DNA of 64,000 nucleotides. Origin: Aquisphaera insulae (GTDB lineage Bacteria > Planctomycetota > Planctomycetia > Isosphaerales > Isosphaeraceae). The translations under genes and the position numbers were made by a program. This document shows, in pieces, positions 1 through 5,672 of the stretch. The notes beneath the pieces were generated by a model that made no database searches, was not told the DNA's origin, and was given only the letters and a program-made list of their open reading frames with translations. Positions within the stretch are counted from its first letter, which is position 1. Every line of letters begins with the position of its first letter. The stretch covers positions 1 to 64,000 of the forward strand of contig NZ_JAALJH010000049.1 in assembly GCF_011064615.1 (NCBI RefSeq), written 5' to 3'.

Positions 1-2
1 GG

Positions 3-836
3 CCCTGCCAGTACGGCTGCGTCATGAAGTGCAACTTCTGCGACGTGCCCAACGTCAAGTTCCGCGGAAACGCCAGCTTCCACGACCTGAAGGCCCAACT
101 CTATAACGCCCTGAGCCTTTTCCCCGGTGTTCATTACACGGAGCGTCTGAACCTGCACTTCGCTCGAATGGGCGATCCCATTTTCAACGAGAGCGTGCTG
201 GAGTTTTCCCGGTGGGCGATCCGCAACAAGCGGCAGATCCACACTGACACGGGCGTTCGGATCGAGGTTCTGCACCCGGTGCTGACCACATCGCTTCCCC
301 GGAAGTTCGCTCCGCTTGAGGAGCGGCTTCAGGAATGGTGCCGGATCAAGAACGAGGACTACAACGGCCAGGCCGGGCTCCAATTCAGCATCAACTCGAC
401 GGACGAGGCCCAGCGCGAGCAGATGTTCGGCGGTATGTCGCTGACGCTGGAGGAGTTTGCAAGGATCGCCGAGCGTCTTCCCGACCCGGTGAGCCGGAAA
501 TACTGCTTGAACTTCGCCTACTCGACGGACTTCGTGATCGACGCGAAGAAGGTCGCGGTCCTCTTCGACACTGACAAGTTCATGGTCAAGATCACGCCGA
601 TCCACAACAACACGGCCTGCCGGGAGAATGGTATCGAGACGGTGGGCGGCTACGACTCCTACCTTCCGTACCGGAAGCCGGAGGACGACCTCAAGGCCGC
701 AGGGTTCGACGTCCTGGTCTTCGTCCCTTCCATCGACGAGGAGGACGGCCTCGTGACCTGCGGGAACGCCGTCCTCGGTGGCAGCCAGCTCAAAACGGAC
801 GAGAGCGTCATCAAGATTCGCGGTATCGCAGCATGA
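3..836 (+). CDS. RlmN/Cfr-like radical SAM enzyme (5' end outside window)
   Basis: The reading frame is open from the window edge, so the true start lies upstream. The first visible codons contain a CX3CX2C radical SAM cluster motif (CVMKCNFC, about codons 6-13). The C-terminus has the pattern of RlmN: an 'AAGFDVLVFVPSIDEEDG' stretch followed by TCGNAVL, which matches the place of RlmN's second catalytic cysteine (family ACGQL). RlmN/Cfr enzymes methylate C2 or C8 of adenosine in RNA, so RNA methylation is a family-based guess; the substrate here is unknown. The gene starts an operon (ATGA overlap with the next gene) inside an integrative element, and the core chromosomal rlmN is normally not mobile. 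It could instead have been recruited for another RNA or nucleotide modification. Confidence 0.75.
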   Translation, partial: PCQYGCVMKCNFCDVPNVKFRGNASFHDLKAQLYNALSLFPGVHYTERLNLHFARMGDPIFNESVLEFSRWAIRNKRQIHTDTGVRIEVLHPVLTTSLPRKFAPLEERLQEWCRIKNEDYNGQAGLQFSINSTDEAQREQMFGGMSLTLEEFARIAERLPDPVSRKYCLNFAYSTDFVIDAKKVAVLFDTDKFMVKITPIHNNTACRENGIETVGGYDSYLPYRKPEDDLKAAGFDVLVFVPSIDEEDGLVTCGNAVLGGSQLKTDESVIKIRGIAA

Positions 837-1150
837 CCAGTCTTTGCGGGAGATACACCAAGACCTTCTCTGATGCGTCGCACGCCCTGCCAGATGGCAT
901 GCACATGAACGCCGACTACCCCTTCATGCTCCCTCGAATCGTGAAGCTGGAAGGCAACGAAGTAGTGCTGGAAGGCCGGGACGGTGAGGGGCGGTTCAAG
1001 ATCACCAGGGGCAAGGATGGGCGGGAGTATTGCGTCATCGCCCAAAGCAGCAGCTTCGAGAAGATGTTCAGAAGGCCGCCTACCAAGTTCAAGGCGTACC
1101 CCTTCAAAGACGAGCACACTCCGGCGTTATCCGAGAGGGGAGTAGCATGA
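833..1150 (+). CDS. Small hypothetical protein of the element operon
   Basis: This 105-residue protein is not recognised. It has no signal peptide, membrane segment or obvious metal motif; it is rich in Arg, Lys and Phe and looks soluble. Its start overlaps the stop of the radical SAM gene (ATGA), and its stop overlaps the ASCH gene start in the same way, so the three genes are almost certainly translated as one unit. That coupling suggests a partner role for the radical SAM enzyme, but nothing in the sequence states the function. Confidence 0.6.
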   Translation: MTSLCGRYTKTFSDASHALPDGMHMNADYPFMLPRIVKLEGNEVVLEGRDGEGRFKITRGKDGREYCVIAQSSSFEKMFRRPPTKFKAYPFKDEHTPALSERGVA

Positions 1151-1518
1151 AAACCCTCTCCGTCCGCCAGCCATGGGCATGGCTCATCGCCCATGGGTTC
1201 AAGCCGGTCGAGAATCGCACCTGGGACACGAAGGTTCGCGGCCCGATCCTGATCCACGCAGGCAAGTCGTTCGACCGTGAGGGATACGAATGGATACGCT
1301 ACACCTTCCCGGAGATTGACCTTCCGCATCCTGCCCAGTTCGAGCGGGGCGGCATCGTCGGTGTTGCCGACCTCTACGCGGTGGCGACCGTCAGCACCTC
1401 GCCGTGGTTCTGCGGGCCGGTTGGATTCTGCTTTCGGGACGCCAAGCCGCTGCCGTTCGTCCCAACGCCGGGGCGTCTCGGGTTCTTCGAGGCGGAGCAT
1501 CCGGAGGTGTCGGCATGA
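1147..1518 (+). CDS. ASCH domain protein
   Basis: The protein is 123 residues and consists of one ASCH domain. The start motif SVRQPWAWLIAHG followed by ENRTW is the classic ASCH signature, and LIHAG with the central GIVGVADL strand fits the beta-barrel of this PUA-like fold. ASCH proteins bind RNA or modified nucleosides, and some (YqfB) hydrolyse N4-acetylcytidine. The frame is open upstream to 1030, but the start at 1147 gives the family's normal N-terminus and the ATGA overlap used throughout this operon. Together with the RlmN-like gene it suggests an RNA-modification theme for the element; that link is inference. Confidence 0.85.
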   Translation: MKTLSVRQPWAWLIAHGFKPVENRTWDTKVRGPILIHAGKSFDREGYEWIRYTFPEIDLPHPAQFERGGIVGVADLYAVATVSTSPWFCGPVGFCFRDAKPLPFVPTPGRLGFFEAEHPEVSA

Positions 1519-1874
1519 GCCGCGTCCGCTTCAAGTCATGGGACTGCCTCGTCCAGAAACGCCAGTACGGCAATGGCCGCCCGGCGCTCCAACTGATTGA
1601 CGCCGATGACGGCTCGCCGATCGCCACCGCCACCGTGAACCTGCCGGACGTTCCGCTGGGCAAGAACCAGGTCGCCATCAAGGACTACGGGGAAAATGCG
1701 GGAATGTTGAAGGCTCTGGCCGAGGCGGGCATCGTGAAGCCGACCGGGCAGACGATCCCCTCCGGCTACGTCGAGGTTCCGATCTGCGAGCTCCAGCCGC
1801 CGTTCCGGGATGCGACCCAGGTCGATAAGCTGGCCGAGCGGTGTTCAGGCCGGGGCAAAGGACGCGCGAGGTAG
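1515..1874 (+). CDS. Small hypothetical protein (phage/ICE-type)
   Basis: This is a 119-residue protein with the pattern ALQLIDADDGSPIATATVNL, then VAIKDYGENAGMLKALAEAG. Small proteins with this layout are common in phages and conjugative elements, but I cannot name the family with certainty. The start overlaps the ASCH gene stop (ATGA), and the nuclease gene begins two bases after its stop. The frame is open upstream, but the overlap start is preferred. There is no signal peptide or membrane segment, so it is probably cytosolic. Confidence 0.65.
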   Translation: MSRVRFKSWDCLVQKRQYGNGRPALQLIDADDGSPIATATVNLPDVPLGKNQVAIKDYGENAGMLKALAEAGIVKPTGQTIPSGYVEVPICELQPPFRDATQVDKLAERCSGRGKGRAR

Positions 1875-1876
1875 AC

Positions 1877-2239
1877 ATGGCTGTCGGTTCAGGCATCCAG
1901 ACCATCATCGGCCTCATCCGAAGCGCGAAGATCGACCTGTCCAGCGAGAAACGGGCACAGGCCGACGTCGAGCAGGTCCTGACTCAGACCGGGATCGCCT
2001 TCGAGCGCGAGCTTCCTCTGACGGACTCGGACATCATCGACTTCATGGTCGAAGACATCGGGATCGAGCTGAAGCTCAAGGGCGCCCGGAAGAAGGAGGT
2101 CTACCGGCAGCTCTGCCGCTACGCCCGCCATCCCCGCGTCGGTTCCCTGATCCTGGCTTCCAATCTCAGCATGGGCCTCCCCGCCCAGATCGAGGGCAAG
2201 GACGCCTATTTCGTCCGGCTGGGGGAGGCGTGGCTATGA
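1877..2239 (+). CDS. PD-(D/E)XK nuclease-like protein
   Basis: The 120-residue protein carries the core of a restriction-endonuclease fold. An aspartate in DIIDFMVEDIG is followed by GIELKLKG, which supplies the E-x-K of the catalytic site, then a KKEVYRQLCRYARHP helix and a LILAS strand. The whole protein is little more than the nuclease core, like VRR-NUC or Holliday-junction-resolvase-sized proteins. The start at 1877 has an AGG-type ribosome site in GCGAGGTAGAC. It is translationally coupled to the helicase that follows (ATGA overlap). Small PD-(D/E)XK protein plus SNF2 helicase pairs occur in phage replication modules and in defence systems, and the sequence does not decide between them. 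Confidence 0.72.
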   Translation: MAVGSGIQTIIGLIRSAKIDLSSEKRAQADVEQVLTQTGIAFERELPLTDSDIIDFMVEDIGIELKLKGARKKEVYRQLCRYARHPRVGSLILASNLSMGLPAQIEGKDAYFVRLGEAWL

Positions 2240-3915
2240 GCAGAACCTACGGCAGCCTTTCGCTCTCCCCCGACCAGTCTCAGTGGATCATCGGCCGCGC
2301 CGAGCCGCACGTCTCGATCCGCCTCAAGCAGATCTTCCCCAGCATCCCCAAAGCCGCTGTGCCCCCGTACCGGTTGCCCCACAACCTCGTGACGGACACC
2401 GACCTCGACTGGTTCATGCAGCGTTACCCGCTGGACGTGTCCGAGGTCGACCGGGCCGCCCTCTCCAGCGGTCACCAGGAGTTCCTCCAGCGTCAGGCCG
2501 AGATGGAACGCATCCTGATGCCGGACTATGCCCCCAACGGCGGAGCCCAGCTCCGCGAGGGGCAGCAGCTCAGGCTCTACCAGTGGCAGGCCATCGAGGT
2601 TCTGCGCCGGAGACACCGGCTCCTGCTCGGCGACGAGGGCGGGCTCGGGAAGACCTACACGGCCGCCGGCTTCATGGTGGCCGAGCCGGGCGCATTGCCC
2701 GCCGCCGTGGTCTGCGACGCCCACATGCAGCGGCAATGGAAGGAGAAGATCGAGGCGTTCACCCATCTCCGCGTCCACCTGATCAAAAAGGGCAGCCCCT
2801 ACGCCTTGCCTCCGGCGGATGTCTACGTCTACCGCATCAGCCAGGTCGCCGGGTGGTCGGACATCTTCGCCACGGGGTTCTTCAAGTCCGTCACCTACGA
2901 CGAGCCGCAATCGCTCCGGACGGGGGCGAGCACGGCCAAGGGGGCGGCCTGCAAGGTGCTCTCGGCAAACACGACCTACCACCTCGGGCTGACCGCCACG
3001 CCGATCTACAACTACGGCGACGAGATGTGGCACATCATGCAGTTCATCGACGACGCGGCGCTCGGCCAGTGGCCGGAGTTCGAGCGGGAATGGTGCGACG
3101 CCATCGGGAACGGGAAATACCGGATCAAGGACCCGAAGGCGCTCGGCACCTACCTCCGCGAGCAGTACGTCATGCTCCGTCGCCTCAAGTCGGACGTCGG
3201 GCAGCAGTTGCCGAAGGTCTCCCGCATCGTCGAGCACATCGACTACGACGAGAAGACGGTCTCGGCCGTCGAGGATCTGGCACGAGCCCTCGCCATCAAG
3301 GCGACCACGGCCAGCTTCGTCGAGCGCGGGAACGCCGCCCGCGAGCTGGACATCATGATGCGGCAGACGACCGGCGTGGCCAAGGCTAGGACGGTGGCCG
3401 CGTTCGCCCGGATGATGGTCGAGGCGGGCGAGTCCGTCGTGCTCTGGGGCTGGCACCGGGAGGTCTACGAGATCTGGAATCGGGAGTTGGCCGACCTGAA
3501 GCCCGCGATGTACACGGGCAGCGAGACCGCCGGGAAGAAGGAGGCGGCGAAGTCCCGGTTCCTGAACGGCGAGACGGACATCCTCATCATGTCGCTCAGG
3601 AGCGGGGCGGGCGTCGACGGCCTCCAGCACCGCTGCTGCACCGGCATCTTCGGGGAGCTCGACTGGTCGCCGGGCATCCACCAGCAGTGCATCTGGAGGC
3701 TTGACCGCGAGGGTCAGACCAGCCCGGTGACGGCGTTCTTCCTCGTGACGGACGACGGCAGCGACCCGCCGATCATGGACGTCCTGGGCATCAAGGCGTC
3801 CGAGGCCCAGAGCATCGTCGACCCGTATCTCGGCGTCGAGGTCAAGGAGAACGACACCAGCCACCTGCGGAGGCTCGTCGAGCGGTATCTCGACCGGAAA
3901 AAGGGGGCCGCCTGA
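2236..3915 (+). CDS. SNF2-family DEAD/DEAH-like helicase
   Basis: This is a 559-residue SF2 ATPase of the SNF2/RapA type. Visible motifs are the Q-motif region (LRLYQWQAIEVL), motif I GDEGGLGKT, motif II as DEPQ in place of DEAH, motif III LGLTATP, and motif VI QCIWRLDREGQTSPV near the C-terminus. There is no obvious extra DNA-binding or nuclease domain; the nuclease is the separate, overlapping upstream gene. The start at 2236 is set by the ATGA overlap, although the frame is open further upstream. The protein probably remodels or translocates on DNA with the nuclease partner, in element replication or in defence. It is the last gene before the integrase. Confidence 0.85.
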   Translation: MSRTYGSLSLSPDQSQWIIGRAEPHVSIRLKQIFPSIPKAAVPPYRLPHNLVTDTDLDWFMQRYPLDVSEVDRAALSSGHQEFLQRQAEMERILMPDYAPNGGAQLREGQQLRLYQWQAIEVLRRRHRLLLGDEGGLGKTYTAAGFMVAEPGALPAAVVCDAHMQRQWKEKIEAFTHLRVHLIKKGSPYALPPADVYVYRISQVAGWSDIFATGFFKSVTYDEPQSLRTGASTAKGAACKVLSANTTYHLGLTATPIYNYGDEMWHIMQFIDDAALGQWPEFEREWCDAIGNGKYRIKDPKALGTYLREQYVMLRRLKSDVGQQLPKVSRIVEHIDYDEKTVSAVEDLARALAIKATTASFVERGNAARELDIMMRQTTGVAKARTVAAFARMMVEAGESVVLWGWHREVYEIWNRELADLKPAMYTGSETAGKKEAAKSRFLNGETDILIMSLRSGAGVDGLQHRCCTGIFGELDWSPGIHQQCIWRLDREGQTSPVTAFFLVTDDGSDPPIMDVLGIKASEAQSIVDPYLGVEVKENDTSHLRRLVERYLDRKKGAA

Positions 3916-4007
3916 TGCTTCCCGGCAAACCGCCAACCCCTCTGGCTCGCTCCACCTCCTGAACGTAAAATCACTACATTCAACCCGATACCACCGGAGC
4001 CATCGCC

Positions 4008-5378
4008 ATGGCCTCGATCCGCAAGCAGAGCCGGGACAAGGGCCAGAAGAACAAGCCCTACTACATCCAGTACGTCGATCATGAGGGCAAGCGGGTCACG
4101 GTCAAGGGGTTCACCGACAAGGCCCTGACCGAGCAGCTCGCCGCGAAGCTGGAGCACGAGGTCATGCTCCGCAAGCGGGGGATGATCGACCCGGCGCAGG
4201 AGCGGCTCCTGGCGATCAAGAAGTCGCCGATCGAGGACCACCTTGCCGCCTTCGACCGGTCGATGGCCAATAACACCCAGAAGCACCGCAAGCTGACCAT
4301 GACGCGCGTCCGGCGGGTGGTTGAGGGCTGCGGATTCAAGACCCTCGCGGAGATGGACGGCGAGAAGGTCGTCGAGTGGCTGAACGAGGCCCGGGAGGAG
4401 GACGACCTCGGTGCCCGCACTTACAACCACTACCTGCAGGCGGCCGACGCGTTCGGCAAGTGGCTGGTCGCCACGAAGCGGCTACCCGTCAACCCGCTGG
4501 CCGGGATGGAGAGGCTCAACGCCGAGACCGACGTCCGGCACAAGCGGCGGGCGCTCTCCAACGACGAGGTCCGCCGGCTGATCGAGGCGGCCCGAGGGTC
4601 GGGGGTGGAGGTGCAGGGCTACGACGGCGAGACCCGGGCCCGCATCTACCAGATCAGCTACCTCACCGGGCTCAGGAGGGGAGAGCTGGCGAGCCTGACC
4701 CCGGCCTCCTTCATGCTGGACGCTGCCCAGCCGACGCTGACGGTCGAGGCCAGGTCGTCCAAGCACCGGCGGAAGGACACGCTGCCGATGCACCCGGAAC
4801 TGGTTGAATTGGTGCGTGAATGGACGGATGGTCTTGGTCTGGATGAGCCGCTCTTCCCGAAGCTCGCCCGGCGGAAGACGTACACCATGGTCCAGAAGGA
4901 TCTGGAGCGGGCAGGCATCCCCTATGAGACACACGAGGGGCTGGCCGACTTCCACGCGGCGGGGCGGCACTCCCACATCACCGGGCTCGTCCGGTCGGGG
5001 GCGTCGATCATGGAGGCGAAGGAACTCGCCCGCCATGCCGACATTCGGCAGACGGCCAGGTACACCCACATCGGCATCGAAGACCAGGCGGAGGCGCTGG
5101 CCAGCCTGCCTCGCACCAATGCATCGGCGAACGTCGATAGACTGCACATTGCCTGCATTCGGGGCGACGTCGGGAGTCGCGAGGCGTCGCCGGATGGCAG
5201 CGAGCCCGTGGGCGAGGCCGGGCCGGAAAACGAAAAAACCCCTTCCGGGGAAGGGGTTTCGTCGTCTGGTGTCACTGACTTTCAGGAGTTGTCAGTTGAC
5301 GTAAGTAGTGGAGGCGGCGGGAATTGCACCCGCGTCCCGAGAAGCGTTAGTGAGGGCCTCTACGTGCGTAGCCGATGA
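4008..5378 (+). CDS. int: Tyrosine recombinase/integrase of the ssrA-integrated element
   Basis: The protein has an N-terminal arm-binding and SAM-like core-binding region (about residues 60-170) and a catalytic domain (about 180-360). The catalytic set is visible: Arg in TGLRRGEL, Lys in SSKHRRKD, the HxxR box in HAAGRHSH, His in LARHADI and the Tyr nucleophile in ARYTHIG. After about residue 370 the tail is low-complexity. Its codons pass through a terminator for the opposite strand and then through the antisense of the last ~70 bases of tmRNA. The C-terminus is therefore partly supplied by the target site and would differ in the excised form. It is separated from the helicase by 92 bp and has its own GGAG ribosome site. 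This is an element-type integrase, not XerC/D. Confidence 0.9.
   Translation: MASIRKQSRDKGQKNKPYYIQYVDHEGKRVTVKGFTDKALTEQLAAKLEHEVMLRKRGMIDPAQERLLAIKKSPIEDHLAAFDRSMANNTQKHRKLTMTRVRRVVEGCGFKTLAEMDGEKVVEWLNEAREEDDLGARTYNHYLQAADAFGKWLVATKRLPVNPLAGMERLNAETDVRHKRRALSNDEVRRLIEAARGSGVEVQGYDGETRARIYQISYLTGLRRGELASLTPASFMLDAAQPTLTVEARSSKHRRKDTLPMHPELVELVREWTDGLGLDEPLFPKLARRKTYTMVQKDLERAGIPYETHEGLADFHAAGRHSHITGLVRSGASIMEAKELARHADIRQTARYTHIGIEDQAEALASLPRTNASANVDRLHIACIRGDVGSREASPDGSEPVGEAGPENEKTPSGEGVSSSGVTDFQELSVDVSSGGGGNCTRVPRSVSEGLYVRSR
5233..5259 (-). terminator. Intrinsic terminator for ssrA inside the integrase 3' end
   Basis: AAACCCCTTCC and GGAAGGGGTTT form a perfect 11-bp inverted repeat around a two-base centre. 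On the minus strand the stem is followed by six T residues (5233-5238), giving a classic rho-independent terminator about 50 bases beyond the tmRNA 3' end. On the plus strand there is no useful T run, so it does not serve the integrase gene. It lies within integrase codons. Confidence 0.85.
5306..5340. other. Probable attachment site at the ssrA 3' end (element right end)
   Basis: The integrase reading frame abuts and enters the T-arm and acceptor stem of tmRNA, a very common target of tyrosine integrases. The 3' end of ssrA is intact, as expected when the element restores the gene on integration. The matching direct repeat at the other end must lie left of the window, so the exact core cannot be fixed. 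Confidence 0.65.
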
Positions 5379-5672
5379 TTTGATTGTCGGCCGCGGGGCT
5401 CCCATCGGCAGGATCCCTTTTGGCTTATCTCATCATGAGTTTAACCCTGGCCGCAACGAGAGGTTAGGCCCGGGCGATCCCGAATTGGCGTCCCCGGCCG
5501 TGCCTCTCGGGAGAAGGCTCGGCGCGAGGCCGTCGCTGTTTTTCAGGCAGCGAGACGGAGACCAACAGTGTTGTTGGCAGTTAAGTTTTAGTCGGCTTTT
5601 TACGAGGCCTGCTGACCAACCTCGGCACGCCACCGCACACCTCTGACATCCGGTCGATCCTGGTTCGCCCCC
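5309..5672 (-). ncRNA. ssrA: tmRNA (transfer-messenger RNA)
   Basis: On the minus strand the RNA begins GGGGGCGAACC and ends CGCCTCC plus discriminator A, giving a 7-bp acceptor stem with one G-U pair. The T-arm GCGGGTGCAATTCCCGC is intact. The tag frame starts at the resume codon GCC. The next three genomic bases read CTA, so CCA is not encoded and must be added. The molecule is one-piece, not permuted, with room for pseudoknots on both sides of the tag. It lies directly downstream of smpB on the same strand, pairing the RNA with its protein partner in trans-translation. Confidence 0.96.
5543..5578 (-). other. tmRNA tag reading frame (ANNTVGLRLAA)
   Basis: Eleven codons from GCC followed by TGA encode ANNTVGLRLAA. 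The Ala resume codon and the terminal LAA degradation signal match known tags. The peptide is added to stalled nascent chains and directs them to ClpXP-type proteolysis. Confidence 0.92.

Follow-up and report, generated by a model that had tools for sequence, protein, structure and literature searches.

What kind of element has entered the ssrA gene at the start of this contig, and do the genes that it carries there make up one functional unit? The DNA analysed, hereafter the window, comprises 64,000 nucleotides of Aquisphaera insulae (genome G000, a 10-Mb draft in 309 contigs) and starts at the first base of contig C254. It opens with six closely spaced genes, followed by a tyrosine integrase gene that runs into ssrA, the gene of the transfer-messenger RNA (tmRNA). 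Our preferred answer, to which we give a probability of about 0.75, is that the window start represents the right attachment (attR) end of an ssrA-specific integrative, probably mobilizable element with a variable cargo slot. The locus would thereby document, in a family of large-genome bacteria, an ssrA-specific family of such elements with a precise grammar of attachment (att) and arm sites; some members of this element family are listed as viruses in IMG/VR.

Attachment sites and related elements

The right end of the element comprises the following features.

4008-5378, + strand: tyrosine integrase (Phage_integrase match 3e-17; R..H-x-x-R..H..Y residues present by eye)
5142-5157, + strand: integrase arm-type site CTGCACATTGCCTGCA, 150 bp from the core, with an identical copy at the left end (L018:5415-5430)
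5307-5328, strand not applicable: attR core AGTGGAGGCGGCGGGAATTGCA, with an identical left (attL) core at L018:5328-5349 on contig C59
5308-5672 by ARAGORN, 5306-5672 by Rfam (RF00023, full-length, E 4.2e-61), − strand: ssrA (tmRNA), restored by the element

The integrase gene reads into the ssrA 3′ end, and its C-terminal codons are ssrA DNA. When the ssrA end was compared with its own genome by BLAST, a 31-bp match was obtained on contig C59, with an exact shared core of 22 bp. This copy of the ssrA 3′ end has the orientation expected of the far att site, and its arm sites match. The arm-site form CTGCA-N6-CTGCA has a single occurrence each in the 64-kb window and in C59, exactly at the two element ends; the two sites agree in all 16 bp and are unlike the arm sites of the relatives described below. 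We take C59 and C254 to be the two ends of one element, a physical link that we infer; a search for a contig-end overlap that might join contigs found none at window position 1. The second att repeat, for which the first-pass annotation had proposed a search to the left, thus exists, but on C59. As the sequence and the comparison with relatives show, the integrase recombines the 22-bp core at the ssrA 3′ end, ssrA being rebuilt on integration, and uses the paired CTGCA arm sites, which lie about 65 bp inward of the left core and 150 bp inward of the right one.

Once the element is circular, the frame of the integrase would run from the core into the left end (L018:5350 onward), giving at least 500 amino acids (aa) as compared to 456, such that the C-terminus would differ between the integrated and excised states. 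Near its start, contig C298 matches the ssrA 3′ end exactly over 18 bp (L019:640-657); this stretch lacks arm sites and is possibly a relic of an older insertion.

An integrase 74-75% identical lies beside ssrA in three genomes of the same family, G009, G013 and G018. Exact 27-28-bp copies of the ssrA end are found 49 kb (G009) and 115 kb (G013) from ssrA and bound the elements there, and in G018 both element ends are present on separate contigs. In G000, G009 and G013, both ends follow this layout, with arm sites 61-66 bp inward of the left core and 149-150 bp inward of the right core; in G018, the right end has the standard form and spacing and the left-end copy is degenerate. Each of the three relatives encodes a TrwC/MobF relaxase and, upstream of the integrase, ParB, a coupling protein (TraG-D_C domain) and Xis. 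Their relaxases match at 43-44% a protein of the IMG/VR record L118, which itself matches TrwC of Pfam at 8.4e-62. Among the 25 Pfam families shown for the 42 predicted proteins of the G009 element are TrwC, a replication initiator (RPA), ParA/ParB types, type I restriction and HMUDK. On C59, attL is followed on the right by genes for an HNH endonuclease, an XRE protein, an M78 peptidase, a papain-like peptidase, a thymidylate-synthase (TS)-like protein and a HMUDK_hel-MazG protein, and the left end of the G009 element repeats the order XRE, M78, TS-like, HMUDK (67% identical), MazG. The same integrase, the att pair and the mobility genes in G009, G013 and G018 together point to an ssrA-specific integrative, probably mobilizable element rather than a demonstrated prophage. 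Homology of the integrase, the att layout and the left-end genes would place the element of the window among those encoding a MobF relaxase together with a coupling protein of the TraG/D type, and its mating channel may be either borrowed or self-encoded.

The same integrase, ending in ssrA, is also present in two "viral" IMG/VR contigs, L144 and L145. Upstream of it, both have Xis and an open reading frame (ORF) looking by eye like an ASCH protein; L144 additionally has p4 (one of the six genes of the window, see below) and a coupling protein of the type seen in a further viral record, L071, and L145 has a match to the G009-like coupling protein. The four records L071, L072, L144 and L145, all listed as viral, carry conjugation-type genes, with coupling proteins in all four and, for L071 and L072, a TrwC relaxase in the record as well; they are probably not plain phages. 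In the same-genus genome G002, the 18.8 kb beside ssrA contain no such integrase. The att pair, the arm sites, the elements in the same family and the ssrA of this same-genus genome agree with the first-pass proposal of an integrative element in ssrA.

Known ssrA genomic islands (the Dehalococcoides ssrA-GIs, PMC3146451; the tDNA islands of Islander, PMC4383910) are alike in their tyrosine integrase, the direct repeat of the ssrA 3′ end, the restored tmRNA and the variable cargo beside a conserved integration module. The Dehalococcoides islands belong to another bacterial group, bear other cargo and appear to encode no conjugation genes (PMC3146451), whereas the relatives found here encode a MobF relaxase and a coupling protein.

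The six genes before the integrase

The block upstream of the integrase consists of the following genes.

3-836, + strand: RlmN-like radical SAM protein, phrog_24834 (ORF and profile matches; 5′ end cut by the contig edge)
833-1150, + strand: p2, a small protein of no recognised family (84% identical copy in the IMG/VR element L071, next to p4)
1147-1518, + strand: ASCH-domain protein, phrog_3193 (ASCH 2.3e-5; 74% identity in L072; relatives on plasmids)
1515-1874, + strand: p4, a DUF4313-like small protein (DUF4313 match below the Pfam cutoff)
1877-2239, + strand: PD-(D/E)XK-type protein, phrog_5928 (7.9e-28; motif D-IIDF ... IELKLK by eye)
2236-3915, + strand: SNF2-family helicase, phrog_62 (2.2e-83; SNF2 family match 2.8e-18)

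Four of the five junctions are ATGA overlaps (at 833, 1147, 1515 and 2236), and the fifth, between p4 and the PD-(D/E)XK gene, is a 2-nt gap (TAGACATG); the integrase gene stands apart from this operon, starting 92 nt downstream of the SNF2 gene. The gene list and the mostly ATGA overlaps were thus described correctly at first pass. No match to p2 was found in Pfam, PHROG, NCBIfam or PADLOC.

The closest copies of the block are in L071 and L072, where coupling-protein genes lie upstream and an integrase-like gene (by eye) downstream. The p4-nuclease-SNF2 DNA is 87% identical to L071, and the ASCH-p4-nuclease-SNF2 DNA is 80% identical to L072; p4 itself is 80% identical in L071, 64% in L072 and 55% in L144, where it directly precedes the ssrA integrase. 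L071 keeps p2 and has no ASCH gene, L072 keeps the ASCH gene, and the radical SAM gene is absent beside the block in both. This gene is an insert that can be exchanged, and the six genes therefore do not constitute a single conserved functional unit. Among 45 genomes of the family, only G000 has the radical SAM gene. Going by what lies upstream of the same integrase in L144 and L145, the six genes occupy a variable cargo slot within this family of integrative mobilizable elements. The idea that the operon forms a mobile RNA-modification or defence unit is not demonstrated by these data.

The PD-(D/E)XK nuclease occurs in 101 plasmid records, and the nuclease-helicase pair is also found in phages, e.g., beside an integrase in Ruegeria phage 45A6; relatives of the ASCH protein are known from both plasmids and phages. 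In Ruegeria phage 45A6 and in the P. aeruginosa plasmid pNY5530-NR1, the two genes are likewise adjacent, overlapping and in the same order, with about 40-66% identity, whereas here they share one operon with p2, p4, the ASCH and the radical SAM genes within an integrated element. The simplest reading is that nuclease and helicase would be a DNA-maintenance pair common to plasmids, phages and integrative elements and joined by variable companions, and that the ASCH/p4/nuclease/helicase block is a module shared by these carriers, probably for DNA maintenance. Most likely, this part would act on the element's own DNA, in its repair, recombination or replication, while the element is transferred and becomes established. 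The alternative first-pass suggestion of a phage-like replication module holds insofar as the pair does occur in phages; yet it is at least as widespread on plasmids, and the relatives of the integrase sit in elements with a relaxase and a coupling protein, not in demonstrated prophages.

Competing explanations

A prophage or phage-plasmid in ssrA would account for the six genes as an early or replication region, with capsid and tail genes in the unassembled middle of the element. Most of the cargo genes indeed match PHROG families, the nuclease-helicase pair has its counterpart in phage 45A6, and IMG/VR lists as viral elements that have an integrase or helicase of the window type. Nevertheless, the same-integrase elements of G009, G013 and G018 have genes for a TrwC relaxase and a TraG-like protein, none of the 25 Pfam families shown for the 42 G009 proteins is a structural phage family, and the SNF2 protein is commoner in plasmid (409) than in phage (151) records and closer to the plasmid copies (66% vs. 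44%). No structural phage gene was recognised in the roughly 11 kb of assembled element, the middle being unassembled. On balance we consider a prophage unlikely. A dedicated anti-phage or RNA-modification system made up of the six genes is still harder to accept: SNF2 helicases and PD-(D/E)XK nucleases do occur in defence systems, and the ZorD, DpdE and BrxH models match the helicase, but these matches cover only its generic core, PADLOC has no model that fits p2, the nuclease or the ASCH protein, and the match of the radical SAM protein is insignificant. The gene content of the block also varies, and relatives of the radical SAM gene stand in unlike neighbourhoods. That the repeat on C59 stems from another, older ssrA element, the element of the window having lost its own left end, is very improbable. 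C59 and C254 are not joined, and another partial ssrA-like stretch, of 18 bp, lies at C298:640; against this stand the arm sites shared by C59 and the window and unlike those of the relatives, and a left-end gene order that matches the element with the same integrase in G009.

Several observations weigh against an ssrA-specific mobilizable element as well. The 10-Mb draft contains no TrwC relaxase (other relaxase families were not searched), no match to the two coupling-protein query types and no second integrase of the window type, the last point telling equally against a separate older element. The assembly does not include the middle of the element, and the element's size, its mobility genes and possible structural phage genes are thereby out of view; either this gap explains the missing relaxase and coupling protein, or this copy is not self-mobilizable. 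L071 and L118 also hold terminase-like (by eye), primase-like and recombinase-like genes, and a phage-plasmid hybrid is possible. To the left of attL, C59 has genes for OsmC, an ABC ATPase with its permease (MetNI) and NlpA, which look chromosomal; none of the relatives examined has the OsmC/MetNI/NlpA genes next to ssrA, and at the nucleotide level only the OsmC part is strongly matched in G002, at 88 kb.

The left-end operon and the RlmN-like protein

The cargo of the element poses two testable questions, namely, whether the TS/HMUDK/MazG operon of its left end defends the host, and what the target is of an RlmN-like phage enzyme that has no cysteine 118. At the left end, the XRE and M78 genes match the CapH (3.7e-16) and CapP (5.4e-15) models, and L018:7034-11424, where these CapH/CapP-like regulators are followed by papain-like peptidase, TS-like, HMUDK_hel and MazG domains, is a candidate defence operon. 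Recent work identified TS and 5-hmdU-kinase domains in defence systems that were validated by experiment (PMC13092281). This end may plausibly hold a defence operon that responds to damage or phage: like the DefensePredictor systems with 5-hmdU kinase and TS domains (PMC13092281), it combines TS-like, HMUDK-helical and MazG domains, here after XRE/M78, and it may differ from them in its papain-like peptidase and fused MazG. We also considered a thymidine-hypermodified prophage, in which the radical SAM and HMUDK proteins would serve one DNA-modification pathway, and dropped it: none of the nine searched virus records with the radical SAM gene (several of which may be fragments) carries HMUDK_hel, and in G009 HMUDK sits in a relaxase-bearing element.

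The radical SAM protein matches phrog_24834 at 3.3e-84. Its relatives are about 340 aa long and start about 67 residues earlier, so that about 67 N-terminal residues have been lost at the contig edge; the first two codons of the window read P-C vs. S-T in the family, and the very edge of the window may be unreliable. The likeness to RlmN, noted already at first pass, is borne out by a profile match to PDB RlmN (1.8e-7), by the AlphaFold model of the relative L022 (pLDDT 89.7; best match RlmN, E 1e-10, template-modelling score about 0.55) and by hhalign, which aligns C320, invariant in 21 sequences, with RlmN Cys355. The CX3CX2C cluster motif is present, as is the invariant Met in an MG(D/E)P motif. 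RlmN uses Cys355 as its methyl carrier and Cys118 to resolve the protein-RNA crosslink, the latter residue being essential in RlmN/Cfr (PMC9692996). The position of Cys118 is occupied by Thr in all 20 sequences that reach it (the window copy, cut by the contig edge, does not), and the protein should therefore not be called an RlmN orthologue. It differs from RlmN/Cfr also in an identity of about 15% in the structural alignment and in being phage-borne.

The RlmN-like gene is a separate phage-derived insert; judging by fold and residues, its product is predicted to perform C-methyl-type radical chemistry on nucleic acid or a nucleotide. We tentatively suggest, as one possibility, that phrog_24834, a branch of the RlmN fold carried by phages, may bring the radical chemistry to a different outcome (such as a methylene-type or crosslinking change in nucleic acid of the phage or the host) and has been recruited into the ssrA element. 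Elsewhere, such proteins occur in highly diverse phages. Relatives at 65-77% identity are found in viral contigs, 6-139 kb long, that share hardly any neighbouring genes; a 51% relative is present in Bacteroides phage Versailles, and others in archaeal and bacterial metagenome contigs. Across the viral and metagenome contigs, no neighbouring gene was generally conserved, and C5 DNA methylase models matched 5 of the 110 neighbouring proteins. Some of the relatives lie near genes of NAD metabolism (NrtR/NUDIX, NAPRTase and a nucleotidylyltransferase).

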